Source: Planctomycetota bacterium
GTDB lineage: Bacteria; Planctomycetota; Phycisphaerae; Phycisphaerales; SM1A02
Length of the DNA stretch: 39,239 bases
NCBI GenBank assembly: GCA_026386795.1
Contig: JAPLMU010000038.1
Span: 1 to 39,239 of the forward strand
Reading direction: 5' to 3'
Position 1 is the first letter of the stretch. Every line of letters begins with the position of its first letter. Under the pieces are notes generated by a model. The model did not search any database, was not told where the DNA came from, and saw only the letters and a list, made by a program, of their open reading frames with translations. Position numbers and translations under genes: made by a program. This document shows, piece by piece, positions 8,607 to 39,239 of the stretch.

Positions 8607-8951
8607 ATGGAGACGTACCTTGGCGAAGCCGACGAGAAAGTGATTGTCATCGTTGCTGATGGTGGCCTGAACAAGGGCACCGCTGAGCAAATCGTTCAGG
8701 TCGTTCAGCAAGCGATCGATTGCGGCATGAAGGGCGTCATCATTGATTGCTCAAAGTTGGACATCTTGTCCAGTGCCGGGCTTGGCAAGATGCTCATGCT
8801 GCACAAGAAGATGAAGCAGCACGGTGGCGAAGTCAAGATCGCTGGTCTCCACGGCATGGCGGTCCAAGTGTTACGCCTCACCCGGCTCGATGGAATCTTC
8901 CAGCTGTATCCGGATGTCGCCCAAGCGCGGCTTGCATTCCGCGGAACCTGA
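8607..8951 (+). CDS. STAS-domain anti-sigma-factor antagonist
   Basis: 114 residues covering a single STAS domain of the SpoIIAA/RsbV type. The segment GVIIDCSKLDILSSAGLGKML (43-63) is the hallmark: Ser56 in LSSAGLG aligns with the serine phosphorylated by the kinase/anti-sigma partner, and Ser55 takes the place of the usual preceding Asp. The tail (KIAGLHGMAVQVLRLTRLDGIFQLYPD) matches the C-terminal helix/strand of the fold. Such proteins act in partner-switching cascades controlling sigma factors or secretion. No RsbW-like kinase or PP2C phosphatase lies nearby. Confidence 0.9.
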   Translation: METYLGEADEKVIVIVADGGLNKGTAEQIVQVVQQAIDCGMKGVIIDCSKLDILSSAGLGKMLMLHKKMKQHGGEVKIAGLHGMAVQVLRLTRLDGIFQLYPDVAQARLAFRGT

Positions 8952-8953
8952 GT

Positions 8954-8966
8954 GGCGACGGTCGCC
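8954..8966. terminator. Small hairpin between convergent STAS and trmB genes
   Basis: GGCGA-CGG-TCGCC forms a 5-bp stem in the 19-base gap between the two convergent stops. It has only a weak T-rich flank (TTCATC on +), so it may be a bidirectional terminator, but this is weak evidence. Confidence 0.3.
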
Positions 8967-8970
8967 TTCA

Positions 8971-9627
8971 TCAAACGCGACGCAGCGTCACCGCGTGAAA
9001 CGGACGACCTTCGCGCTGGTATTTACGCTCAAAATTCGTGCCAACGACCTCGCCATCCGCTGCACTCGCGGGGCGTTCGAAACTGACTGGCGTAAAGATG
9101 TGCCCGTTGCGGGCAATGTGCTCTTGGTACCACGTCCACAGCTCATCGTGGTCGGTGACTAATCGAAGCTCGCCGCCCGGACGGAGCACGCGGTGGAACT
9201 GCGCGAGCGTTGCATCTTGCACCACGCGCCGCTTGTGATGGCGCGTCTTGGGCCAGGGATCGCTGAAGTACAGGTGCACCACCGAGCAGCAACTGTCGGG
9301 CAGCCAGTGCGTCAGAAATTCGGTGGCGTCCGCGTAAAGCATGCGAACATTTGTCAGCTCCGCGCGACGGATGCGGTCCGCCGCGTAGCGATAGAACTCG
9401 CCCGCATATTCGATGCCCAAGAAGTTGACATCCGGGTGCGATGGCGCCTCCTGGAGGAGAAACGTCCCCTTCCCAGAACCGATTTCAAGCTCAAACGGCG
9501 CATCAGGACGGGCTGGAAAGAAGTAGGCAGGGCCAAGGCGCCCCGCTTCTGCAGGCGGCAATTCGCGCTGCGCGAGACCGATGCCAGTGACATCGAGCGT
9601 ACGACCATGACCGAGTCCAAATGACAT
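8971..9627 (-). CDS. trmB: tRNA (guanine-N7-)-methyltransferase
   Basis: 218 residues. The SAM-binding motif ELEIGSGKG (47-55), the acidic residue after it (GIEYAGEF, 71-78) and the family signature FSDPWPKTRHHKRR (121-134) identify TrmB, which makes m7G46 in tRNA. The C-terminal TNFERK segment matches the conserved T-x-(F/Y)-E block. Length is normal. The start lies 59 bases from the divergent haem-protein gene. Cytoplasmic, uses S-adenosylmethionine; probably monocistronic. Confidence 0.95.
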   Translation of the reverse strand: MSFGLGHGRTLDVTGIGLAQRELPPAEAGRLGPAYFFPARPDAPFELEIGSGKGTFLLQEAPSHPDVNFLGIEYAGEFYRYAADRIRRAELTNVRMLYADATEFLTHWLPDSCCSVVHLYFSDPWPKTRHHKRRVVQDATLAQFHRVLRPGGELRLVTDHDELWTWYQEHIARNGHIFTPVSFERPASAADGEVVGTNFERKYQREGRPFHAVTLRRV

Positions 9628-15126: not shown

Positions 15127-15453
15127 TCACGCGCCGCGACCGCCGCTGCGACCACCGCCGCCGCTGCCGCCTTCACGGCTGCCACCGGAACGTGAGCCGG
15201 CACCTGAACGGCCACCGGTCGTGCGCGCAGCTGGTGCGGCAGAAGGCGAACCTGGACGTGAGCCGGGACGACCGAGCAATGGACGCGGACCAGCGCGACG
15301 AATCGCTGCGCGACGCTTGATCTCGGAAGGCTTCTCGTAATACTGGCGGCGCTTCACTTCTTTCGTCAGCCCGTCTTTTTCACAGAGCTTCTTGAAGCGG
15401 CGGACCATCTGCTCGACGGTTTCGCCTCCACGCGCCTTGACCTTAATTGCCAT
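15127..15453 (-). CDS. rpsU: Ribosomal protein bS21 with Gly/Arg/Ser-rich C-terminal tail
   Basis: 108 residues from the ATG at 15453. Residues 1-54 are a complete bS21 (MAIKVKARGGETVEQMV, LTKEVKRRQYYEKPSEIKRR). Residues 55-108 are a tail rich in Gly, Arg, Ser and Pro, with no homologue known to me; typical bS21 is 60-75 residues. The longer frame (to 15651) is rejected because it reads through the promoter region. bS21 sits near the 16S 3' end and takes part in initiation. A candidate sigma-70 promoter lies at 15523-15551. The tail could be an RNA-binding addition. Confidence 0.92.
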   Translation of the reverse strand: MAIKVKARGGETVEQMVRRFKKLCEKDGLTKEVKRRQYYEKPSEIKRRAAIRRAGPRPLLGRPGSRPGSPSAAPAARTTGGRSGAGSRSGGSREGGSGGGGRSGGRGA

Positions 15454-15522
15454 ATCGAGAAAACCTTTCGTTCTGTTCGTACCCCGCGCGTCGGACATCG
15501 CGTCCGCACTGGGGAACGAGGC

Positions 15523-15551
15523 ATTAGACCCGTTTTCGGTAAGAAACACAA
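15523..15551 (-). promoter_or_regulatory. Candidate sigma-70 promoter for rpsU-rsfS
   Basis: On the minus strand TTGTGT (15546-15551) is followed, after exactly 17 bases, by TCTAAT (15523-15528), matching -35 and -10 consensus at 4/6 and 5/6 positions. It would start transcription near 15516, about 60 bases before the rpsU start. Confidence 0.45.
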
Positions 15552-15618
15552 TCCCCCCTTTCATCGGGGCATAAGATGTCCGATAAGGGGCACACTTCAC
15601 CACCGCCCCGCTGCGCAG

Positions 15619-16101
15619 ATGCTCATCGTCGATGCCTACAACGTCCTGCATGTCACCGGCATTTTGCCGCCGGAATTGGCTGGTTTGGATGCGCCTGACC
15701 TTGCCGACTTAGTGGCGGCCAGCCGCTGGGGGCGCCATCAGGCCGTCATTGTGTGCGACGGAACGCGCCCGAAGGAGATGCGCGCCGTGGAGCGGGGGCT
15801 CGTTCGCGTCACCTACGCAGGAGGCGGTCGAAGCGCGGACGCGGCGATTGAAGCGATGGTGAACGAGAGTTCCCACCCGCGCCGCATCACCGTGGTCTCC
15901 AACGACCGCGCCGTGCAACGCTCCGGCAAGCGGCGCGGAGCCAAGATCTTGGGCGCTGATGAATTCCTGCGACAATTAGCCACCGACGCCGCTCGCGCCC
16001 CGCGCAGCAAACGCAGCCTTGCCAAGCGCGAGCATGGGCCTTTGACTGACAAACAAGTCGACGCGTGGTTGCGCTACTTTGGAATCGATCCAACGGAGTA
16101 A
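15619..16101 (+). CDS. YacP-like NYN-domain endoribonuclease
   Basis: 160 residues. The N-terminal MLIVDAYNVLH (Asp5 as metal ligand), then VIVCDGTRPKE, TYAGGGRSADAAIEAMV (Asp as second ligand) and ITVVSNDRAVQ are the four acidic motifs of the NYN/PIN-like fold of the YacP (Rae1) family. Rae1 in Bacillus cleaves mRNA at the ribosome. The C-terminus (PLTDKQVDAWLRYFGI) is the usual short helix. All metal-binding residues look present. It lies divergent from rpsU, whose start is 165 bases away, and six bases before pdxH. Confidence 0.85.
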   Translation: MLIVDAYNVLHVTGILPPELAGLDAPDLADLVAASRWGRHQAVIVCDGTRPKEMRAVERGLVRVTYAGGGRSADAAIEAMVNESSHPRRITVVSNDRAVQRSGKRRGAKILGADEFLRQLATDAARAPRSKRSLAKREHGPLTDKQVDAWLRYFGIDPTE

Positions 16102-25717: not shown

Positions 25718-25822
25718 CTGGAACCCGCTCCCCTGGCCGCACTCGCCGGAGAGGACTGGGCCGCGCTCAGCGGCCGTCCTCGTAAGGCGAATGCGGGCCA
25801 GTACAAACGCCGGTTTGCAAAC
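25718..25822 (-). repeat. Hairpin interspersed repeat, copy B
   Basis: Reverse complement of the copy at 142-249 with about six substitutions and one single-base indel over ~105 bp. It has the same GAGGAC / GGCCGC inverted-repeat core and a GTTTGCAAAC palindrome at the end next to copy C. Confidence 0.75.
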
Positions 25823-25903
25823 ACGCTCACCCTGGCCGCACTCGCCGGAGAGGACAGGGCCGCGCTCAGCGGCCGTCCTCGTAAGGCGATTGCGGGCCAG
25901 TAA
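25821..25903 (-). repeat. Hairpin interspersed repeat, copy C
   Basis: Head-to-tail with copy B, offset 99 bases. The core (CTGGCCGC..GGGCCAG) is identical to copy A across the hairpin; similarity decays after 25901. The tandem arrangement suggests local duplication of one unit. Confidence 0.72.
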
Positions 25904-26050
25904 GAAGGCGTGATGCAACAACGCGCACCCCAACGACCTGCCCAGAACAAATCGTGCCACCTTGTCCAGGATGCAATTTCGCCTCGCTCGGCCGCAGATT
26001 CGCAGCACATCGTGGAATGAACGGCTTCGCGTACCCTGCGTGGTTCCCCT

Positions 26051-28078
26051 ATGCCTATTGCCACTCTCACCAACGTCCGTTACGGCTTCGGCACCCACAT
26101 CGTGCTCGATGGCGCCACTGTATCTATCGAACCTGGCGAGAAAGTTGGCCTTGTCGGTCGCAATGGTGGCGGCAAGAGCACGCTCATGAAGTTGATCGCC
26201 GGTCTGTGGCAAGTGGAGTTCGGATCCCTTGCTTTGGCACGAGGCACGCGCGTTGGCTATCTCGCGCAGGACCCAAAGCTAGAACCAACGGACACGCTTC
26301 GCCATGCTGCCGCGCGTGCGTTCGAGCACCTTGACAGCCTGCATCGCCAGATGGAAGAAATTTACGAGTTGATGGCCAAGCCGGACGCGGACATCGACAT
26401 TCTGATGAAGCGTCAAGTAAAGATCGAAGAAGAGATCGAACGCGCGGGCGGATACGCGATTGATCACAAGATTGACGAGACGCTGCACGGCCTGGGCTTC
26501 ACCGATGAACAATTCTCTGTGTTGGTTTCCAAGATGTCGGGCGGCCAGCGCGCGCGCGTTGGACTTGCACGGCTGTTGCTCGAGCAGCCTGATATCTTGC
26601 TGCTTGATGAACCAACCAACCATTTGGATATCGAAGGCCGCCGTTGGCTAGAGAATTTCCTAGCCAACGAGTACCCCGGCGCCGTGCTCGTGGTGAGCCA
26701 TGATCGGCGGCTCCTTGATACGGTGGTGCACCGAATCATTGAGGTGGACCAAGGTCGCATTATTGAATATCCCGGTAATTATCGCGATTTCATCAACCTT
26801 CGACGCGAGCGCATGATGAACAGCCAGCGCAGCCACGAGAAGCAACTCGGGAAGATCCGCGCCGAAGAGCAGTACATCCTGAAGTACAAGGCTGGCCAGC
26901 GAGCCAAGCAAGCACGCGGACGCGAAACACGCCTTGAGCGCTTCAAGCGCGATGAACTGGTGGATCGTCCAGCTGAACTCGATGTGATGAGTCTCGAACT
27001 TCCCAAAGCACCCCGCGTCGGCGATTATGTCATGCGCGGTGCGGGCCTTTCAAAGCGATACGGCGACAAAGTGCTCTTCACTGAGTTGGATTTTGCAATC
27101 AAGCCCCTCGATCGCATCGGAATCGTTGGCCCCAACGGCGCTGGCAAGACCACGCTCGTGCGCGCGCTGCTCGGCGATCTTGAGCCGGATGCAGGCGAAC
27201 TCAAAGTAAGCCCGCAGATGAAGGTCGGCTACTTCCGGCAGACGCAGGAACACATTGACCCAATGCTGACGGTGTGGGAATACCTGCAGCGCGTGATTGC
27301 TTCCAACGAGGGCGGACTGCGCGCGAGTGAGCAACAGGCGCGCAACCTTGCGGGAGCGTTCCTGTTCTCTGGCCCCGAGCAGGAAAAGTGCGTTGGCAAT
27401 CTCTCTGGTGGCGAGCGCGGCCGGATGGTGATTGCTGGAATTGTCAGCGCGGCAAACAACCTGATTGTCTTGGATGAGCCGACCAACCACTTGGACATTC
27501 CCAGCGCCGAACGCCTAGAAACTGCCCTTTCCATGGACCCAAAGGATGGCGGCTATGACGGCGCGCTCATTCTCATTAGCCATGATCGCGCACTTCTTTC
27601 GGCGTGCTGTGACCGACTGCTGATCTTGGATGGCGAAGGCAATGCCCGCGACTTTGACGGCGGCTGGGATGAGTGGGAAGCGAAGGAAGCCGAAGAGCGT
27701 TCGCAACGCGAGGCGGTTGAACGCGCTGCTGTCGATCGCGAGAAGGCGAAGGCTGAGCAACGCGCCCGACCCGAGCAGTCTGGCAAGAACGCTTCCGGAA
27801 ACAAAGGTTCCACAAACAACACCAACAAGGGCGCTGCTGGTTCAAAGGGATCATCGAGCGCCACGGCCGGTGATCCAAAGATCGCACGCATGAACCTTGA
27901 ACAGATCGAGGCGCGTATCACTGCTATCGAGACGCGCACGCGCGCCATTGATACCGATCTCATGAATCCCAAGGTCTACGCCGATTCCGCCAAGTCGCGC
28001 ACGCTCACCCAGGAACGCGAACGGCTCCAGCAAGAGCTGGAGCCGCTGGAGTTTGAGTGGAGCCGACGGAGCGAGTAA
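26051..28078 (+). CDS. ABC-F family ATPase (ribosome-associated type)
   Basis: 675 residues with two ABC domains and no membrane segments. The first has Walker A GRNGGGKST, signature SGGQRARVGLA and DEPTNHLD; the second has GPNGAGKTT, LSGGERGRMVI and DEPTNHLDI. Between them lies the ABC-F linker (~250-320, ERMMNSQRSHEKQLGKIRAEE, rich in Lys/Arg). The C-terminal ~110 residues comprise a low-complexity Lys/Gly/Ser/Asn segment and a coiled coil (LEQIEARITAIETR..ERLQQELEPLEFEW), as in Uup-like members. ABC-F proteins bind the ribosomal E site and rescue or tune translation. All catalytic motifs are intact. The stop codon directly abuts that of the convergent anti-sigma gene. Confidence 0.93.
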   Translation: MPIATLTNVRYGFGTHIVLDGATVSIEPGEKVGLVGRNGGGKSTLMKLIAGLWQVEFGSLALARGTRVGYLAQDPKLEPTDTLRHAAARAFEHLDSLHRQMEEIYELMAKPDADIDILMKRQVKIEEEIERAGGYAIDHKIDETLHGLGFTDEQFSVLVSKMSGGQRARVGLARLLLEQPDILLLDEPTNHLDIEGRRWLENFLANEYPGAVLVVSHDRRLLDTVVHRIIEVDQGRIIEYPGNYRDFINLRRERMMNSQRSHEKQLGKIRAEEQYILKYKAGQRAKQARGRETRLERFKRDELVDRPAELDVMSLELPKAPRVGDYVMRGAGLSKRYGDKVLFTELDFAIKPLDRIGIVGPNGAGKTTLVRALLGDLEPDAGELKVSPQMKVGYFRQTQEHIDPMLTVWEYLQRVIASNEGGLRASEQQARNLAGAFLFSGPEQEKCVGNLSGGERGRMVIAGIVSAANNLIVLDEPTNHLDIPSAERLETALSMDPKDGGYDGALILISHDRALLSACCDRLLILDGEGNARDFDGGWDEWEAKEAEERSQREAVERAAVDREKAKAEQRARPEQSGKNASGNKGSTNNTNKGAAGSKGSSSATAGDPKIARMNLEQIEARITAIETRTRAIDTDLMNPKVYADSAKSRTLTQERERLQQELEPLEFEWSRRSE

Positions 28079-29002
28079 TCAGCTACTCATGACGACGTCG
28101 CCGGAACTATTCACCAGTTCGAGCGTGCCGGACTTCAGTAGCGTTTCAATGTTGCTGTCCACATGGAATTCTGCTCCCCAAATGGTCCGCGCCGCGGTGA
28201 ATGTGGCCACGTCGACACTCGGGGATCCAATTGCTGACCGAACGCGCAATGTGTAAGAACCTCTTTTCACGCCGACTGCCAACACCATCACCGTGTCAGT
28301 TACGGCGTCGACAGCCACCGTGAGTGTTCCCGAATTCATTGTGGCGGACGCGTCAGTACTGCGTAGACCACGCAGATAACTCGGCGACTCGAATCGCTGC
28401 AACGCGCCCGGGTGACCCAAGGCCTCAAAGATCTGCGCTGGCGCCGCGGCGCCGAGTGCGTACTCCGAGACCTTCAGCGCGAACCCACTGCTCATCAACT
28501 GGAAGACCAGCGCCACCGACAACGCCGCCGTCAGCGCGATCGACGCAGCACGCCAGTAGTACGAACTGATCGTGAACCGCTCCACATCTTTCCGGAGCGC
28601 GGCAAGTTCCATCGCCTGTTCAATCAAGTCCTTGGTATCAACTGACCGAGCTACACGGCGTCCGCCGCGCGATCCCATCCGGCCAATCAGCGCGATCGGT
28701 GCAAATTGTGATTCTTGTTGCTCCACTGCAGTCATGACGCGCGTGAGCGTTTGCAGTTTCAACTCGGGCGACGGCTCCTCAGTGGCCAGGAACGCCGGAT
28801 CAGAAACGGCCGCGGCCTGCACCACACGCAAGTCCGCCTGCATCGCAGCCGGGGCATCGCGGAAGGCGCGGTCAAACTGTGCCGCATCAACATCATCAAG
28901 CAACCCTAACGCGTCCAACACTGCGAGCGCGCGCAGATCAGTACCGCGACCACTATCGGAGGCGGGTCTGTCACTTGGATTGTTGCCATCACTGAACTGC
29001 AT
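28079..29002 (-). CDS. Transmembrane anti-sigma factor (RskA-like)
   Basis: 307 residues. The cytoplasmic part (1-148) starts with an acidic/Ala-rich helical segment (LRALAVLDALGLLDDVDAAQFDRAFRD, ~23-49), the style of the sigma-binding domain in SigK-type anti-sigma factors. One membrane helix lies at ~150-172 (WRAASIALTAALSVALVFQLM). The external part (~175-307) is beta-rich and ends VNSSGDVVMSS, as in RskA C-terminal domains (GTLELVNSSG). It lies 54 bases after the ECF sigma gene on the same strand, the usual pairing. Release probably requires proteolysis of the membrane protein. No zinc-binding HxxxCxxC motif is present. Confidence 0.85.
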   Translation of the reverse strand: MQFSDGNNPSDRPASDSGRGTDLRALAVLDALGLLDDVDAAQFDRAFRDAPAAMQADLRVVQAAAVSDPAFLATEEPSPELKLQTLTRVMTAVEQQESQFAPIALIGRMGSRGGRRVARSVDTKDLIEQAMELAALRKDVERFTISSYYWRAASIALTAALSVALVFQLMSSGFALKVSEYALGAAAPAQIFEALGHPGALQRFESPSYLRGLRSTDASATMNSGTLTVAVDAVTDTVMVLAVGVKRGSYTLRVRSAIGSPSVDVATFTAARTIWGAEFHVDSNIETLLKSGTLELVNSSGDVVMSS

Positions 29003-29056
29003 TGAAATCCCCTTTGTTGCTGTGGATTCATTCGCAGACCAGACTCGGTCGGCTCC

Positions 29057-29641
29057 TCATGCCGAAGAATCTTGCCCGTGATTTTTGTTATCAGACATTA
29101 ATCGGTCACGCAGTCGAGCAAGTCCTCGGCTGAGCGCACTCTTGATCGTCCCGAGCGGCGCGCCGAGCTGCTCACTGACCTCGCGGAGCGTGAAACCTTG
29201 GATGTACGTTCGCTCAATGACCACGCGTTGCAGTTCGGGCAGTTCCGCCACTCGGCGTTGCAGGATCTCAAGATCGTGATTTCCACCCGGGTCGCGCGGT
29301 GGCATCACTACTGGGCCAAGGAAATCGACCGACGAATCAAGCCCCAATTGCTCAGGACGGGCGCTCTTTCGGCGCAATCGATCGATCAGGTGCCGCCGGG
29401 TGATCAGCATGACCCACGTGACAAGTTTGGCGCGATTGGGGTCAAACCGGTCGGCGGTCTGCCAAAGCCGGATGAACGTCTCCTGAACCGCATCCTCCGC
29501 CTCAGCCCGAGATGGCATGATTTGCCGCGACGTTTTGTAGACCAACCCGACAAAGCGGTCATACAGCTCAGCCATCGCCGCTTCGTCACCCTCTCCTACC
29601 TTCTGCATCAGAAGCCAGTCATTGTGTTCGGCGGGTTCCAA
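29057..29641 (-). CDS. ECF sigma factor (SigK-like)
   Basis: 194 residues. Region 2 (~22-88) has the core-binding and -10-recognition helices (LYDRFVGLVYKTSRQIM, AEDAVQETFIRLW, WVMLITRRHLIDRLRR). Region 4 (~132-182) ends with the helix-turn-helix TLREVSEQLGAPLGTIKSALSRGLARLR. The linker is short, as in group 4 sigma factors. Paired with the downstream membrane anti-sigma gene. An 11-bp-spaced direct repeat lies upstream at 29727-29746 and may be a control site. Confidence 0.93.
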   Translation of the reverse strand: MEPAEHNDWLLMQKVGEGDEAAMAELYDRFVGLVYKTSRQIMPSRAEAEDAVQETFIRLWQTADRFDPNRAKLVTWVMLITRRHLIDRLRRKSARPEQLGLDSSVDFLGPVVMPPRDPGGNHDLEILQRRVAELPELQRVVIERTYIQGFTLREVSEQLGAPLGTIKSALSRGLARLRDRLMSDNKNHGQDSSA

Positions 29642-29726
29642 GGGGCCTCCCTTCCAGAAGTGGCGTTGACGGGGCAGACAACACAGAGTGTGCTTCGAAC
29701 TCTCGGGGATTGGGACATGATTCCGC

Positions 29727-29746
29727 CAGAATTCGTTCAGAATTCG
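29727..29746. promoter_or_regulatory. 11-bp-phased direct repeat upstream of the ECF sigma gene
   Basis: CAGAATTCG occurs twice (29727-29735 and 29738-29746) with a two-base spacer, i.e. one helical turn apart. It lies in the 182-base gap between the divergent sigma and pseudopilin genes, about 90 bases from each. A regulator dimer could bind here; this is inference only. Confidence 0.4.
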
Positions 29747-29823
29747 ATTGAGTTTCGCTCAGAAGGTGGCAAACTACCCTTGGCTGACACTGTGCGTCCA
29801 CCCAGCCGTGTGCGAAATACGCG

Positions 29824-30621
29824 ATGACCAGGAACTCAGGTCTCCCATATTCGTCGTTCATCAAGCCGTCTCACAGCGGCACGAGGGGTCGCGTTGGCTT
29901 CACCGTCATTGAACTGATCGTGTGCATGGGCGTGGTGGCGATCATGTGCGGAATCCTGCTGCCGTCCTTGCGTGCGGCGCGCGAGACGTCACTGCGACTC
30001 CGCTGCCAGTGCAACATGCACGAGATCGGCATTGCCATCAGCGCTTATGGCATCCAGTCTGACAGCCGCGTGCCGCCGAGCAACAATGTGATCGGCGCGG
30101 CCCCGGCGCGGCAAGAGCTCATGGCCGCGCGTTTGCAAATCGGTGGCGCAGCTGGTCCAACTGGTTGGGACGGTCTTGGAATCTTGGTCAAGGGCGGATA
30201 CATCGGCGACTGCCGGTGCCTGTACTGCGCGAGCCACCACGGCGAGCATTCATTTGATCGCTACGCGGCTGACTACGAGCAGAAGGATTCCGCTGGCGTC
30301 CAGATCTACACGAACTATCAATACTCCGGTCACATCCGTCGACAAATTGCCGACGGCCTGCAAGCGCGCGAAACACCCATCACCCTCGACTCTGGCAGCG
30401 GTGTACTTCTACTGACAGACGGATTGCGAACGCGCGGTGATTTCAATCACGTCACCGGTCTCAATCGCATGTTCGCCGACCTGAGCATTGAGTGGTGGGC
30501 TGATACCGGAAATCAACTGCGCAACCAGATCCCGGAGAGTGCTCTCGCCGCGGGCGCGTCATCAGCAGCGTTCCAGTCGATTTGGGATGAAATCACCCCG
30601 CCATCAGCAGAGACGCCATGA
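29824..30621 (+). CDS. Type II secretion pseudopilin / prepilin-like protein
   Basis: 265 residues with a 24-residue basic leader and the prepilin cleavage motif G-FTVIELIVCMG (cleavage after Gly25; Phe at +1, Glu at +5), followed by a ~20-residue hydrophobic helix. The soluble part has the planctomycete-style layout with a CRCLYCASHHGEH cluster at ~135-147 and GLNRMFADLSIEWWAD near the end (a common H-x-G-x-N..FxDGSV-like site). Many such single pseudopilins exist in this phylum without an adjacent secretion operon, and none is seen here. Confidence 0.85.
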   Translation: MTRNSGLPYSSFIKPSHSGTRGRVGFTVIELIVCMGVVAIMCGILLPSLRAARETSLRLRCQCNMHEIGIAISAYGIQSDSRVPPSNNVIGAAPARQELMAARLQIGGAAGPTGWDGLGILVKGGYIGDCRCLYCASHHGEHSFDRYAADYEQKDSAGVQIYTNYQYSGHIRRQIADGLQARETPITLDSGSGVLLLTDGLRTRGDFNHVTGLNRMFADLSIEWWADTGNQLRNQIPESALAAGASSAAFQSIWDEITPPSAETP

Positions 30622-30679
30622 CGGCCTGACGCGCAGCGCGGGCTCGCATGACGCACTGCTATTCAAAGGTCATTGACAC

Positions 30680-31684
30680 TCAACGATCGCCACGGGGAAC
30701 CGCCAACACACCTTGTTGTGCGCGATGCTCGCTGAATCCCAAGTCAAATGTGCGATATCCGCGCCATCCAAGCCGAGGGCCCGCCAGCATCTGATCGATC
30801 CGCAACAGCGCCCACGGACGCTCAAACGTGCACAGCCAACCACTCGCGCGCCATGGCGGCGCAGGCGTGCACCCGTTGGCTAGTTCTTCAATCACCACGC
30901 TGCCGGGCGTGCAGTTGAAGTCGCCAAGAACGATGTCAGGTTGCGCCGGCAACGCCACGCGCTGCAGCACTTTATGCACGGCATTCGCCAAGTGACCGCG
31001 CGCCACCCACGGAGCGGACGGCATGTCGACCACAAGAATTCGAATCGGCACACCGGAAGGCGACTGCACCACCATCCACGCGAGCCACACCGTACCGATC
31101 CGCGCGATCGATTCGCGACACAGAACGTGGCACTCGATGATAGGAAGGCGCGAAGCAATCGCGACAACTCCAAGATCAACGCCGCGCATCCCCTCCGGCA
31201 TCCATGCGTCGCGCGCAGCGGAGCGCAACATTGAGCCAGGGCCACTGATGATCGTCACATCTCCCATCACTCCCGCGAGCGCGCGGCCGCATGCAAGCGC
31301 GTTGTCACCGGGCCACTGCGGATTCCAATGAGTGATGACCACATCATCGGCTGTGACTGAAGCGGCTATTGGGCTCCAACCAACATCATGTCGAAGGAAC
31401 CGTCCCGCACTCCACACCGCGACCACAGTCAGTGCAATGAACAATGCGCGTGCCGGCCGGCGTGATCCGAAAGAACGCCGCGCCATCCACGCAGCGAAAG
31501 CAAACACAATGAACATCACCCACGCTGGAACCCAGAACACGCACTGGCTCCACAACCACTGATCACGCGCGATCTGCGCGGCAACCCACACAACCGCAAC
31601 GACTGACACTGGCAGCACCACGCTCACCGCAAGCGCGAATGCCCATCCGACAACCGATCGCATTCGTGTCCGACGCGATCTCAC
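30680..31684 (-). CDS. Membrane endonuclease/exonuclease/phosphatase-family protein
   Basis: About 334 residues from the GTG at 31684, which overlaps the upstream stop (GTGA); an ATG at 31663 is an alternative. Three N-terminal helices (~10-100 span) anchor a soluble domain. The C-terminal EEP domain shows ILVVDMPSAPW, PDIVLGDFNCTPGS (metal and catalytic Asp/Asn), RIDQML and FSEHRAQQ (catalytic His). The early Glu motif is not obvious: VVITHWNPQWPG replaces the usual (N)xNxxxxN region. Related proteins hydrolyse phosphodiesters in nucleic acids, lipids or sugars; the target is unknown. Confidence 0.8.
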   Translation of the reverse strand: MRSRRTRMRSVVGWAFALAVSVVLPVSVVAVVWVAAQIARDQWLWSQCVFWVPAWVMFIVFAFAAWMARRSFGSRRPARALFIALTVVAVWSAGRFLRHDVGWSPIAASVTADDVVITHWNPQWPGDNALACGRALAGVMGDVTIISGPGSMLRSAARDAWMPEGMRGVDLGVVAIASRLPIIECHVLCRESIARIGTVWLAWMVVQSPSGVPIRILVVDMPSAPWVARGHLANAVHKVLQRVALPAQPDIVLGDFNCTPGSVVIEELANGCTPAPPWRASGWLCTFERPWALLRIDQMLAGPRLGWRGYRTFDLGFSEHRAQQGVLAVPRGDR

Positions 31685-32772
31685 GCCGGTACCGCTCCCG
31701 CGAGTGCGGCAATCGCTGGCAATACCCGTGCTTCTAAGCCACGCGCAGTGCACACGATGCCAACATTCGCAGCCAATGTTTCGCCATGCGAGAAATCAAG
31801 CGGACGTCCATGCGCATCAGTGATGCACGCGCCGGCAACTTCCGCGATCAACGTTCCAGATGCGTGATCCCAGATGCACTCCGAATGCCCGGGTGCGCGC
31901 GGCATGCGAATCACAAGATCAGCATCGCCGCGCGCTAACAGCGCGTACTTACATTGACTGTCCATTTCCTGATTCGTAAATGAACCGATCGTTGCGATAC
32001 ATGGCTCGAGCCGCGATGGAAATGCGTTCTTGCTTCGATTCAATGAACGCGCCCAACGCACCGTGGAGCCGTTCCAGGCGTCGACTGTTAATCGCGACTG
32101 CGCCGCGCCCGATGCATCGCACTCGAATGCGCCCACTCCGAGCGCCGCCGCGTAAATCACACCGGGCCCGTCCGTATGCACCGATAGGTCACCGCGCGGG
32201 CCCATGCGTGGGCAGCCCAAGACGCCGATCGTGGCGCGGCTTCCTTCAATGCGCGCAAGACACACTGAACATTGCATGCCAAGGAGAAATCCTTTCGTCC
32301 CATCAATTGGGTCGATGGTCCAATACGGCTCGCCAGCGCGTGGCTCATCACCATCGATCGCGCGCAGTGCGGCGGCGCGGTCGCGCCAACCGAGCATGCT
32401 GCGAATGGCATCGACGACGAGGCGTTCAACATCCGGGCGTCCGCTGGTTGCCAACACGTCGGCATGCTCTTCACCCAAGAGCGGCACACGTCCGTCGACA
32501 GAGCGGGCGCGCAGCCCTGCCACCACGAGCGCCTGCAACACATAGTCAGCGGCGGTGACTGGCGAACCGTCGCCCTTCTCAATGGGCGGGACCGATGCCA
32601 ATGTTGCACCCAAGAGTCGGGCGGCGGGAAGCGCGGGAACCACGGCGGCGATCGCATCGGCCAAGGGGCTGCCGGTGGGAATCTGCGCGGAGGCATTCGA
32701 GGCGGAGTTCTGGGCGAAGTTCTTGGGGGACTTCTGAGCGGAGTTCTGGGAACGGTCCTGGGAGCGTGTCAT
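31681..32772 (-). CDS. HAL2/CysQ-like 3'(2'),5'-bisphosphate nucleotidase (inositol-monophosphatase family)
   Basis: 363 residues from the ATG at 32772. The N-terminal ~30 residues are a Ser/Asn/Gln/Ala-rich run (QNSAQKSPKNFAQNSASNAS) encoded by a degenerate repeat. The catalytic domain then shows GDGSPVTAADYVLQ, LLGEEHAD, WTIDPIDGTKGF (metal-binding Asp cluster) and HSECIWDHASG, all family signatures. The wording resembles HAL2-type PAP phosphatases (KYALLARGDADLVIRMP) more than inositol monophosphatase. Role is probably turnover of 3'-phosphoadenosine phosphates from sulfate metabolism. It is the first gene of a two-gene unit with the EEP protein. Confidence 0.87.
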   Translation of the reverse strand: MTRSQDRSQNSAQKSPKNFAQNSASNASAQIPTGSPLADAIAAVVPALPAARLLGATLASVPPIEKGDGSPVTAADYVLQALVVAGLRARSVDGRVPLLGEEHADVLATSGRPDVERLVVDAIRSMLGWRDRAAALRAIDGDEPRAGEPYWTIDPIDGTKGFLLGMQCSVCLARIEGSRATIGVLGCPRMGPRGDLSVHTDGPGVIYAAALGVGAFECDASGAAQSRLTVDAWNGSTVRWARSLNRSKNAFPSRLEPCIATIGSFTNQEMDSQCKYALLARGDADLVIRMPRAPGHSECIWDHASGTLIAEVAGACITDAHGRPLDFSHGETLAANVGIVCTARGLEARVLPAIAALAGAVPA

Positions 32773-32900
32773 GGGGGTCGCGGATGCTAGAGGGAAGCGC
32801 ACCTGCACCGTGTGCTGCCAGAACGGCAGATCGATACGGCCAGTACGCCGAATAGGACAGGAAATCGACCCACCACGGCCTCGATTGACCCCCAACGGAC

Positions 32901-32916: not shown

Positions 32917-32996
32917 TTAACACCCTCGAGCGCGGGCATCCGCCCCCTCCCCCCCCACCGCACGAACCAACTCCCACGAAAGGGACTCAACTCACT

Positions 32997-34913
32997 ATGT
33001 CAACCAAATCAATCATCATCGGCATCGACCTCGGCACCACCAACAGCGTGGTCGCGGTCATGGAAGGCTCCCAGCCCAAGGTCATCATCAACTCGGTCGG
33101 CCAGCGCACCACCCCCTCGGTCGTCGGCTTCACCGAGAAGGGCGAGCGGCTCGTCGGTCAAATCGCCAAGCATCAGCAGATCACCAATCCAACCAACACT
33201 GTCTTCAGCATCAAGCGCTTCATGGGTCGTCGCCACAGCGAAGTGGGCCACGAAGAGAAGTTGGTGCCGTACGCCATCAAGGGCGCACCCGATGAACTAG
33301 TGAAAGTTGCCATCCGCGGCAAGGACTACACGCCGCCGGAAATCTCCGCCATGATCTTGGCTGACCTCAAGCGTCAGGCCGAAGAGTTCCTTGGCGAAAC
33401 CGTCACCCGCGCCGTCATCACTGTGCCCGCGTACTTCAACGACGCGCAACGTCAAGCCACCAAGGACGCTGGCGAAGTTGCCGGCCTCAAGGTTGAGCGC
33501 ATCATCAATGAGCCAACGGCCGCGGCACTCGCCTACGGTCTTGAGAAGAAGACCAACGCGAAGATCGCTGTGTTCGACCTCGGCGGCGGAACGTTCGATG
33601 TGTCCATCTTGGACATTTCCGACGGCGTGTTCGAAGTGCTCTCCACGAACGGTGACACTCACCTCGGTGGCGATGACTTCGATCAGAAGCTCATCGACTT
33701 CTTGGCCGAGGACTTCCGCAAGAAGGAAGGCATTGATGTCCGCAAGGATCCAATGGCTCTGCAGCGCCTGAAGGAAGCTGCCGAGAAGGCCAAGATTGAA
33801 CTCTCCACTCAGGTGGAGACCACCGTCAACTTGCCATTCATCACTGCGGACCAGAACGGTCCGAAGCACTTGCAAGTCACGCTAACCCGCGCCAAGTTTG
33901 AAGAACTCTGCAAGGATCTGTTCGAACGCCTTGCTGCGCCGTGCGAGAAGGCGCTTGCTGATGCAAAGCTCAAGCCGTCCGACGTGCAAGAGATCGTCAT
34001 GGTTGGTGGTTCGATTCGCATCCCCAAGGTGCAGGAACTCGCCAAGAAGATCTTCCACACGGACAATCTTGACAAGAGCATTAATCCTGACGAAGTGGTC
34101 GCTATCGGCGCGGCGATTCAGGGCGGCGTGCTCATGGGCGATGTGAAGAACGTGGTGCTCCTTGATATCACCCCACTGTCGCTCGGCGTTGAAACGCTCG
34201 GCGGTGTGATGACCAAGCTCATCGAACGCAACACGACCATCCCAACCTCGAAGAAAGAGATCTTCTCCACTGCGCAGGACAATCAGAACGCCGTGACGAT
34301 CGTGGTGCTGCAAGGCGAGCGCCAAATGGCTGCAGACAATCGCGTCCTGGGACGCTTCGACCTGCAAGGCATTGCAGCCGCACCGCGCGGCGTGCCGCAA
34401 GTGGAAGTGGAATTCTCGTTGGACGCCAACGGCATCCTGAATGTCATGGCAACGGAGAAGGCGACTGGCAAGAAGCAGGAAATCAAGATCACCGGCTCGA
34501 GCGGTATCTCCAAGGACGAAGTGGAGCGCATGCGCAAGGATGCCGAAGATCACGCCACCGCCGACAAGGCGCGTCGCGAGCTCGTCGACACCAAGAATCG
34601 CGCGGAGCAGGTGGCGTACCAGGTCAAGAAGCAGCTCGAGGAGATGGGCGCGAAGGTGCCAGCCGAAAGCCGCAACAAGATTGAAAGTGCGATCAGCAAT
34701 CTTGAGGACAAGCTGAAGGGCGACGATCAAGCCGCCATCGAAGCTGCGCTCAACAACCTGATGAACGCCTCGGGCGAACTGCAGCAAGCTGCAGGTGCCG
34801 CGGGCGCAGGAGAACCTGGAGCTGCTGGCGGATCTGCCGGATCGTCCGAAGGTGGCCCCAAGAAGGACGACGTCATCGACGCCGAGTACGAAGTAACCGA
34901 CGAGAAGAAGTAA
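32997..34913 (+). CDS. dnaK: Molecular chaperone DnaK (Hsp70)
   Basis: 638 residues, normal length. The ATPase domain has [17 protein letters not shown] (phosphate 1), [50 protein letters not shown] (phosphate 2) and [10 protein letters not shown] (adenosine motif; Ile340 where Thr is usual). The linker [18 protein letters not shown] joins the substrate-binding domain, and the C-terminus ends in an Ala/Gly-rich lid and [15 protein letters not shown] lies ~12 bases before the ATG. There is no grpE or dnaJ beside it. A strong hairpin follows the stop. Confidence 0.97.
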
Positions 34914-34921
34914 TTATGCGT

Positions 34922-34953
34922 GGCTAGCGGCAAGGCTCCCCTTGCCGCTAGCC
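34922..34953 (+). terminator. Perfect 14-bp hairpin after dnaK
   Basis: GGCTAGCGGCAAGG and CCTTGCCGCTAGCC pair without mismatch around a CTCC loop, eight bases after the dnaK stop. The following T content is modest (TGCATTGCTT), so termination may be partial; it could also stabilise the mRNA end. Confidence 0.7.
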
Positions 34954-35035
34954 TGCATTGCTTCGGTACCGCTCCGCACAGCCTGATGCGCAACTTCGCG
35001 CATCACGCCGACCCGGGCGCAACGCCGCATGCACC

Positions 35036-36735
35036 ATGCAGATCATCAAGGGTATTGCCGTCAGCCCCGGCATCATCGTCGGACGCGCATTCTTGGTGGG
35101 AACAGCCGAACAGGTCGTCCCACACCGCACCATCGATCCAGCAGAAGTCACCGCGCAACATGCGCGGTTGCACGCTGCACTTGCTGCGGCCAGCGCTGAA
35201 ATTGATGAACTGCGCGAACGCACTCGCCGCGAGCTCGGCCCTGAGCCAGCCAAGATCTTTGAGTTCCACGCCGGACTCCTCCGCGACCGCGTGTTGGTCT
35301 CCGCCGTCGAGCGCCGCGTCGCCAACGATTTCGTGACTGCCGAACAGGCGGTCGCTGATCAGTTCCGCGTCTTGGTCGATCAATTCAACCGCATGGGTAA
35401 TGAGGTCTTCGAGCAGAAGGCCAACGACATTCTGGATCTTGAGCGCCGCGTGCTCGGTCGACTCATGGGCGAAGAGAAGAGCCGACTGGCGCAACTTGAT
35501 GCCCCTGCCATTGTGATCGCCCATGAACTCACGCCAAGCCAAGCTGCCGGCATGGACCGCAGCAAAGTCATCGCCATTGCTACTGACCTCGGTGGTCGCA
35601 CTGGACACACCTCGATCGTGGCGCGCGCGCTCGGCTTGCCAGCGGTGGTTGGTTGCCAGCGGCTTTCAGTGGAAGTGGAAGACGGCGATCAGCTGATTGT
35701 TGACGGCAACGACGGCGTCATCATCCTGCGCCCGGATTCACGCACGCTTGAGGAGTACCGCCGCAAGCAAGAGCGCTCGCAACGCTCCCGCGCGGCGATG
35801 CGCGAACTCTCGGGACATGAGGCCGTCACCAAGTGCGGCGTACGTATCCAACTCATGGGCAACATTGAGTTCCCGGAAGAAGTGGAGGCGGTCCTCGCCA
35901 ACGGCGGCGACGGCGTTGGTCTCTACCGAACCGAATTCCTCTGGCTCACCCGCAAGGAGCCGCCCACTGAACAAGATCACATGGACGCGTATCTCCGCGC
36001 CAATACACCCAGGCGCAAATGGAAGAGCCGGAGCGAAATCCCTTCTTGGGCCTTCGCTCCATCCGGCACTCCTTGGCGAACCCCGCCGAATTCAAATTGC
36101 AGTTGCGCGCCATCTTGCGAGCCAGTGCCCACGGCCCGGTCAAGATGATGTTCCCACTGGTCTCCAACCTCATGGAGCTCCGCCAGGGCAAGCTCATGCT
36201 GGCCGACATCAGCGAGGAATTGGAGGACGAAGGCATCACCTTTGACCGGCAGATGCCCGTTGGGGTGATGATCGAAGTGCCCTCTGCGGCCTTGATGGCC
36301 AGGGTTTTTGCCGCCGAAAGCAACTTCTTTTCCATCGGCACCAATGACCTTGTCCAGTACACCCTGGCGGTCGACCGTGGCAACGAGCGGGTGGCACATC
36401 TCTACCAATCAGCCCACCCGGCGGTCGTTTATCTGGCCAAATCGGTGGTCCGAGCTGCCCGCAGTGCCCAGATCGACTGCAGCCTGTGCGGCGAAATGGC
36501 CGGCGAACCGCTCTTTTCCATGTTGCTGTTAGGCATGGGTTTGCGTACACTCTCCATGGTTCCTGACCAGATCCCCGTCATCAAACGAGTGATCAGATCA
36601 GTAACGATTGAACAATGCGAACGCCTGGCCCGACGGGTCGGTTCGTTCGACTCGGAGCGTCAGGTTGAAACAGCCTTGCGCGACGAACTCAGGAAACTTG
36701 ATCCCGATGTGTTTGGACAGTGGGTGTCCGAATAA
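35036..36735 (+). pseudogene. ptsI: PTS enzyme I, interrupted by an internal deletion and frameshift
   Basis: From the ATG at 35036, residues 1-322 are a good PEP-protein phosphotransferase N-half: MQIIKGIAVSPGI, phospho-His191 in GGRTGHTSIVARALG, and GVGLYRTEFLW. The frame then runs into unrelated sequence and stops at 36146-36148. From about 36001 another frame reads QYTQAQMEEPERNPFLGLRSIRH and continues to 36735 with GTNDLVQYTLAVDR and the catalytic CGEMAGEP. Compared with E. coli EI, about 19-20 residues including RT(M/L)D(I/L)G(G/A)DK are absent, and the shift needs a loss of 1 mod 3 bases, so ~58 or 61 bp. Either a true mutation or an assembly error. EI carries phosphate from PEP to HPr. 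Confidence 0.85.
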
Positions 36736-37127
36736 GCACGGATCGCGGCTCCAAGGCGCGTGCCTCGAGCCAAGTAAGGACAACGGGTTGAACCGTCGCT
36801 CGAAACGACAGGTCTGCCCCACGGTGCGAAGCGGGACGATGCCCTTCCGGCGTTGACCCCCGACCCTCGGCGTGGCGGACCCCAAGAGCGCTCCATAGCG
36901 GAGCGCGCGAGACGACGGCACCCAGGCGGAACACACGGTGCGATTAACGAGCTTGTGTCACACAAATCCGACGGACCAACCGTCGCCCGAATTGGATCGA
37001 TCATCGATGAACATCGTTGATCACCGATCCACCGGGCGCGCTTGTTCATTCGTCGAGTGCTGACTGACACGGACTTGCACCTGAAGGTTCCGCCACGAAC
37101 CGCCGCTTGACGCGGCAAGGATTGAAC
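36736..37127 (+). other. Structured leader/intergenic region upstream of the RNase E/G gene
   Basis: A 392-base gap without a gene. It contains several hairpins: 36747-36771 (GGCTC..AGGC-GCGT-GCCT..GAGCC) just after the ptsI stop, 36888-36906 (GCGCTCC-ATAGC-GGAGCGC), and a long imperfect one at 36994-37030 (GGATCG ATCA..TGAT..CGATCC). A short palindrome TTGTG-TCA-CACAA sits at 36953-36965. No tRNA, tmRNA or RNase P signature was seen. It is probably a terminator region plus a long 5' leader; RNase E leaders in enterobacteria fold and mediate autoregulation, but this is analogy only. Confidence 0.5.
36994..37030 (+). promoter_or_regulatory. Long imperfect hairpin in the RNase E/G leader
   Basis: GGATCG pairs with CGATCC at the base, ATCA with TGAT further in (with a three-base CAC bulge), and CGATG with CATCG near the top. 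It lies 98 bases before the GTG start. It may act in RNA-level control. Confidence 0.45.
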
Positions 37128-39239
37128 GTGGCAGACGCCGATACCAAGCATGACGGACTCGAACCGCACGACGGGGATTCCAACGGAGCCAACTCCGAAG
37201 GACATCACGCCGCGCACGAGCATGAACACGACACCGAAGAGGAAAGCGCGTCGATCGACTCGGCCGCCTTCGCATCACTCGAGGCGCTCGAGAGCGGCGA
37301 GGATGCACCCATCCTCCCGGTGCGCGCAATCGATGACGAGGAAGGGAACGAGGATGTCACGGATGGCGCGGAAGCGTCTGCCGATGACTCTGATAACTCT
37401 GATGATGATTCCGACGACGAATCAAGCGATTCTGACGACGACTCATCCGAGGATTCCGAAGACGCCGAAGACGCCGCATCCGGCGAAGATGGCGCGGAAT
37501 CCACAGATACTCCGAGCGATGGCAGCAAACGTCGCAATCGCCGCGGTGGTCGTGGTCGCAAGAAGGAAACTCAGCAGACTGCGCCAGCCGGTTCCAAGCG
37601 CCGCCAACTGATCGTGGTCAACGATGTCCCGGGTGAAGAGTGCCGCATCGCCGTCCTTGAAGACGGACGCCTTGAGCAGATCTTCGCAGAGCGCGAGAAC
37701 ACCGCCACCCACGTCGGCAACATCTATAAGGGCCGCGTCATGAATGTGGAACCCGCCATTCAGGCGGCGTTCATCGACTTCGGCGAAGGCCAGAACGGCT
37801 TCCTGCACATCAGCGATCTGCACCCGCAGTACTTCCCCGGCGAAGAGCGCACCGAGCGCGTCGGCAAGAAGATCGCGCGCCGCGATCGTCCACCGATTCA
37901 GGAAGCGCTCAAGCGCGGACAGGAAGTCATCGTGCAGGTCCTCAAGGAGGGCATCGGTACCAAGGGTCCAACGCTGACGAGTTACGTATCGATTCCCGGC
38001 CGACTGCTGGTGATGATGCCGCAGATGGACAAGGTTGGCGTCAGTCGCAAGGTGGAAGACGAAGATCAGCGTCGCGAAATGCGCCGCATCTTGGACAGCC
38101 TTGAGCTGCCAGAGGGCTTCGGATTCATTCTGCGCACTGCCGGCTTCGATCGCACCAAGACTGAACTGCAGCGCGACGCCATTTATCTGCAGCGTCTGTG
38201 GCAGGCCATGGAGCGACGCATGAGCTCCACCGGCGCGCCCTGCGCCCTGTACACGGAAAGCGATCTGCTGGTTCGCACCATCCGCGACATCGCCGACGAC
38301 AGCGTCGACGCCATCGTGGTGGACAGCGAAAGCGCCTTCACGCGCGCCAAGACCTTCTTGCAAGTGGTGGCGCCGATCAACGCGCCGCGGCTTCTGTACT
38401 ACGACCGCATTGCGCCAGTCTTCGAAGCGTTCGGCGTTGAACGGCAAATTGAGCAAATTCACGCGCGCGAAGTGCCGCTGCCTTCGGGCGGGGCACTGGT
38501 CATTGACCAGACCGAAGCCATGGTGGCGATCGATGTGAACAGTGGCAAGAGCCGCAGTGCACGCGATAGTGAGACCAACGCGTTCAACACCAACCGTGAA
38601 GCCGTTGATGAAATCGCCCGTCAGTTGCGCCTGCGCGACCTGGGCGGAATCATCGTCAACGACTTGATCGACATGCGCATGTCCAAGCACCGGCGCGAGA
38701 TTGAAGCGCGCTTGGAAAGCAATCTGCGCCGCGATCGTGCCAAGACCACCACGCTGGAGATCTCTGACTTCGGCATGATTGAGATGACCCGCCAGCGCAT
38801 GCGCCCGGGTCTTCACAAGGCGCACTTCATGGACTGCCCGCACTGTCACGGGGCCGGCGAAGTCCGCGTGCCCGACGCAGTGGCTGCAGACATTCTGCGC
38901 CGCATCGCCCTGTTCTTCTGCCACGACCGCATTGCGCGCGTCGAGGTGGTGTGCAGCGCGCGCGTTGCTGGCGTGTTCCTGAGTACGCGCCGCAATGCGC
39001 TTCATGAACTTGAGGAGCGATCCGACAAGCGTGTTGATATTCGCATCAGCGAAGCCTTCGCCATGGATCGCGTTGAGGTGTATGCCTACGACGACCGCGG
39101 CGCGGACATTGAGCTTGATCGTCTGCCGCGCGTTCCTGCGCCACGCCTTTCGGATTTGCCGGACAGCGTGGTGGTTTCTGACGATGATGATGGTGATGAC
39201 GATGTGGTGGACGGAGGCGGACACCGTCGCCGTCGCCGT
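37128..39239 (+). CDS. rne: Ribonuclease E/G with acidic/basic N-terminal extension (3' end beyond window)
   Basis: The frame is open from the GTG at 37128 (AAGG seven bases upstream) to the window end, 704 residues so far. Residues ~1-125 are highly acidic (Asp/Glu/Ser runs), then a basic RRNRRGGRGRKK patch (~130-145). The core starts at ~157 (RRQLIVVNDVPGEECRIAV), with the S1 RNA-binding domain (IYKGRVMNVEPAIQAAFIDFG), RNase H-like and DNase I-like parts. Catalytic Asp469 (AIDVNSGKS) and Asp512 (NDLIDM) are 43 apart, and the zinc link C570-PH-C573 is 58 further, exactly the E. coli RNase E spacing. Cleaves mRNA and rRNA precursors, sensing 5' ends. The C-terminus begins another acidic/Arg-rich tail. 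Confidence 0.95.
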   Translation, partial: MADADTKHDGLEPHDGDSNGANSEGHHAAHEHEHDTEEESASIDSAAFASLEALESGEDAPILPVRAIDDEEGNEDVTDGAEASADDSDNSDDDSDDESSDSDDDSSEDSEDAEDAASGEDGAESTDTPSDGSKRRNRRGGRGRKKETQQTAPAGSKRRQLIVVNDVPGEECRIAVLEDGRLEQIFAERENTATHVGNIYKGRVMNVEPAIQAAFIDFGEGQNGFLHISDLHPQYFPGEERTERVGKKIARRDRPPIQEALKRGQEVIVQVLKEGIGTKGPTLTSYVSIPGRLLVMMPQMDKVGVSRKVEDEDQRREMRRILDSLELPEGFGFILRTAGFDRTKTELQRDAIYLQRLWQAMERRMSSTGAPCALYTESDLLVRTIRDIADDSVDAIVVDSESAFTRAKTFLQVVAPINAPRLLYYDRIAPVFEAFGVERQIEQIHAREVPLPSGGALVIDQTEAMVAIDVNSGKSRSARDSETNAFNTNREAVDEIARQLRLRDLGGIIVNDLIDMRMSKHRREIEARLESNLRRDRAKTTTLEISDFGMIEMTRQRMRPGLHKAHFMDCPHCHGAGEVRVPDAVAADILRRIALFFCHDRIARVEVVCSARVAGVFLSTRRNALHELEERSDKRVDIRISEAFAMDRVEVYAYDDRGADIELDRLPRVPAPRLSDLPDSVVVSDDDDGDDDVVDGGGHRRRRR

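Follow-up and report, generated by a model that had tools for sequence, protein, structure and literature searches.

A 58-bp gap divides ptsI between two reading frames in a planctomycete MAG with no second enzyme I found

Has this planctomycete lost its enzyme I through a deletion in ptsI, or is the broken frame a product of the assembly? The window (the whole stretch of DNA analysed, 39,239 nucleotides) is contig C117 of a 2.79-Mb MAG that comprises 203 contigs at 86.65% completeness, and no other assembly of the species was available. The ptsI locus, at 35036-36735 of the forward strand, falls into two pieces in different frames, each well conserved as PTS enzyme I sequence, just as the original prediction had described them. 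The N-terminal piece (35036..36001, frame 2) runs for 322 codons from the ATG at 35036 and carries, in frame to the junction, the HPr-binding domain, the phospho-His domain and the first part of the PEP-binding barrel. The C-terminal piece (about 36003..36735, frame 1), which is 99% identical to loci L005-L007, holds the remaining part of the barrel; an ATG lies in frame at 36019, and the piece ends at a normal stop. Model TIGR01417 matches both pieces with E-values below 1e-70 (3.3e-77 for the N-terminal, 5.9e-74 for the C-terminal), such that model positions 1-317 fall to the first piece, 349-562 to the second and 318-348 to neither. Matches to PF05524 (E-value 4.1e-27) and PF00391 (E-value 2.7e-22) on the N-terminal piece establish that the HPr-binding and phospho-His domains are present. 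The PEP-binding domain, PF02896, is not complete in any one frame: its first 69 positions (matched over 5-69) are in the N-terminal piece, positions 99-291 are in the C-terminal piece in another frame, and the middle is gone. The ORF that contains the N-terminal piece, 34958-36148, adds an out-of-frame tail at 36002..36148 before its stop, and TIGR01417 finds no enzyme I match in this ORF past the junction.

The size and position of the missing segment follow from comparison with 13 congeneric genomes that have a ptsI orthologue. These are MAGs labelled Phycisphaerales, Planctomycetaceae and similar, several of them derived from lakes or ponds by isolate name, and ten were used for a DNA alignment. 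In that alignment a single gap interrupts the window sequence at 36001/36002; it spans exactly 58 bases, and a one-base ambiguity (A) permits the alternative placement 36002/36003. A loss of 1 mod 3 bases, for example 58 or 61, had been anticipated, and the former is the actual value. BLAST against the closest congeners (93-96% identical) returns two gapless pieces that meet at the junction with an overlap of at most 1 base, between which these relatives hold 58 extra bases; neither BLAST nor the DNA alignment reveals any further indel within ptsI relative to them. Alignment to enzyme I of related Phycisphaerae, proposed earlier as a check, finds the orthologue open across the site in 13 of 13 congeners (frames of 601-654 amino acids) and the 58-bp gap in the window only. 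The ten-congener alignment has no flanking repeat at the junction, where the microhomology amounts to 1 bp, and there is no strong hairpin (fold z-score -0.85). On these two grounds a repeat-mediated or hairpin-mediated deletion was ruled out.

The conserved loop RT(M/L)D(I/L)G(G/A)DK had been predicted to be missing near 36000, and the 19 or so residues removed by the 58-bp loss do include RTCDLGADK, lost at 36001/36002. Arg332 of enzyme I binds PEP. When aligned to the E. coli enzyme (2kx9 chain), RTCDLGADK corresponds to Arg332 to Lys340. None of the three forward frames of 34900-36800 contains the motif RTxDxGxDK. A wider scan found it in 97 of the 99 other enzyme I loci fetched; one exception is cut by a contig end (L098) and the other is a partial, distant match (L103). 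Each of the 97 other loci that span the site has the motif.

Translation from the ATG at 35036 would shift frame at the junction and stop at 36148, giving a product that would retain the HPr-binding and His domains. Because most of the barrel and the Arg332/Lys340 loop would be missing, this truncated product should not autophosphorylate from PEP, and we infer from the sequence that ptsI as assembled cannot make a working enzyme. Programmed frameshifting was ruled out, since the conserved residues are themselves missing. The loss of 58 conserved coding bases, with no other enzyme I found, supports the deletion that the original prediction had preferred. It could also be imagined that the two pieces are made separately, or are joined by frameshifting, and act as a split or altered enzyme I, given that both are conserved and that the C-terminal piece has its own in-frame ATG. 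This is extremely improbable: frameshifting cannot restore the lost residues, among them the one aligned to Arg332, no ribosome-binding site is seen in the sequence ahead of 36019, the gene is split in no congener, and at so low a divergence selection would have had no time to shape such an arrangement.

A search of the MAG with the PF05524 and PF02896 profiles found no other enzyme I. PF05524 matches once, and the sole other PF02896 protein is a PEP-utilizing enzyme on contig C69, which was rejected as a second enzyme I: its open frame is 1013 amino acids long, and it aligns weakly with an enzyme I C-terminal query. A single 58-bp loss would have put the MAG's one detected enzyme I gene out of action. 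Enzyme I was found in 61 of 61 genomes in a wider gene-presence survey.

The remaining sequence bears on the age of the break. Against its five closest relatives the window gives dN/dS values of 0.03-0.04, close to the 0.007-0.035 among intact copies; both ptsI pieces show strong purifying selection, so that the break must be very young if it is real. The window has 11 silent and 3 replacing codon changes of its own (3/14 nonsynonymous), against 72 silent and 5 replacing (5/77) summed over the other five copies. With a Fisher p of 0.10 for this comparison, relaxed selection in the window ptsI is not established, and the codon counts are at most a hint of it. A genuine loss would be so recent that the rest of ptsI would show no clear decay.

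We favour the view that the deletion is genuine and occurred in one strain or population, a reading to which we assign a probability of roughly 0.55. The chief alternative, which falls a little short of even odds, is that the gap stems from an assembly, gap-closing or chimeric-read fault and that the organism has an ordinary, intact ptsI. Such a fault would accord with purifying selection that shows no clear relaxation, with the presence of enzyme I in every genome surveyed and its integrity in every congener, and with the fragmented and incomplete state of the MAG, the one available assembly of its species. Moreover, false pseudogenes arise in draft assemblies, and assembly errors are known to be a main source of them (PMC11017572). 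Like recent deletion pseudogenes and the false pseudogenes of drafts, the window ptsI has one frame-breaking indel in an otherwise conserved and selected gene, but the indel here is 58 bp, rather than the one or two bases of those cases (PMC11017572). In favour of a real deletion, the junction offers an assembler neither a repeat nor a strong hairpin to collapse. The loss of 58 bp where the flanks overlap by 1 bp and no repeats occur is unlike the usual homopolymer or repeat-collapse error, and such damage was judged to be present in no other gene of an aligned sample. To look for frame damage in the MAG at large, about 194 kb of the MAG (sampled contigs) was compared with about 1.15 Mb of congener G002 and some stretches of other congeners, of which 54 kb aligned above 85% identity. 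Full-length matches were obtained for 77 congener ORFs, and split matches for ptsI (three congener copies) and for two ORFs in contig C47. Both of the latter were judged spurious, one being the upstream overhang of an ORF whose L123 orthologue starts later and the other an ORF antisense to ptsN. In about 80 gene comparisons on the sampled contigs, no frame change besides that of ptsI was judged genuine, and a generally poor frame quality of the MAG was not seen there. We lean slightly, then, towards a real deletion in some cells over a fault.

What such a deletion would disable depends on the chain that ptsI serves. The EI-R group, to which planctomycete enzyme I has been assigned, is regulatory and covers Planctomycetes and other taxa without PTS transporters (PMC2405797). 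The window gene looks like part of a transporter-less chain of this kind (EI, HPr, EIIA): it shares with PtsI (TIGR01417) of the EI-R group the domain order, the single copy and the stand-alone gene. It differs from that group in having lost the 58 bp, the unbroken frame and the RTxDxGxDK loop. A PF02378 search of the MAG, at 86.65% completeness, returned no EIIC permease; two EIIA domains (PF00359) were found. The genome search proposed alongside the original prediction returned no second ptsI, no match to HPr kinase and no HPr, the last only by the accident of a contig end. In congener G003, ptsH directly adjoins a ptsN-like EIIA gene, beyond which comes an ORF named from its sequence as ribosome hibernation factor-like. 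The matching contig with ptsN, C47, opens on caacat; reverse-complemented, this reads ATG TTG, the two codons that begin ptsH. HPr is missing from the MAG because C47 breaks two codons into ptsH, and its absence was accordingly ruled out as support for a broken chain; the lack of an HPr kinase match lends none either. Were the whole chain being lost in the lineage, ptsH gone along with ptsI, the failure to find HPr would fit; given this contig break, and the occurrence of ptsH in 57 of the 61 genomes surveyed, including all 44 of high quality (the four without it are 67-87% complete), this is very unlikely.

The predicted 'broken PTS' needs revision as to the system that would be broken. Because no permease was found, it would here describe a regulatory relay gone silent and would not imply that sugar uptake had failed. 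That a lake planctomycete population has just switched off its regulatory PTS chain through a genuine loss of part of its sole enzyme I gene, with HPr and EIIA left permanently unphosphorylated by PEP, is a tentative reading to which we give somewhat less than an even chance. Biologically the case is ordinary: a well-known gene, not one of a new kind, has either become a null allele very recently or been misassembled, and the case has little significance beyond this genome. If the deletion is real, a strain has lost a regulatory phosphate relay that is conserved throughout the order; if it is false, it cautions against inferring metabolic loss from one draft assembly.

Several other features of the contig were observed. 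The spacer between dnaK and ptsI (34914-35035) varies in length among congeners: G010 matches the window, G003 has 27 bp more, and G002 and G011 have about 95-120 bp more. Identity to congeners steps at dnaK, from about 79-82% upstream (25832-32900) to 92-97% from dnaK onward (32988-39239), as though the part upstream had a separate history or had evolved faster. A 25.5-kb block is bounded on either side by a GC-rich repeat of 80-93 nt (143-235 and 25730-25822, inverted, 94%), with an extra direct copy at 25830-25909; synteny with the ptsI contig of G002 begins just past this repeat, and that contig also has copies (L115, about 8725-9130). On the minus strand, 15127-15651 encodes a ribosomal protein S21 domain in a 174-amino-acid ORF, long for S21, which may reflect an N-terminal extension or a later true start. 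Downstream of ptsI, a ribonuclease E/G-like ORF (37107-39239, named from sequence) bears a long acidic tail at its N-terminus and is cut off by the contig end, and a piece of matching C-terminus lies at G000:C13:436-792.
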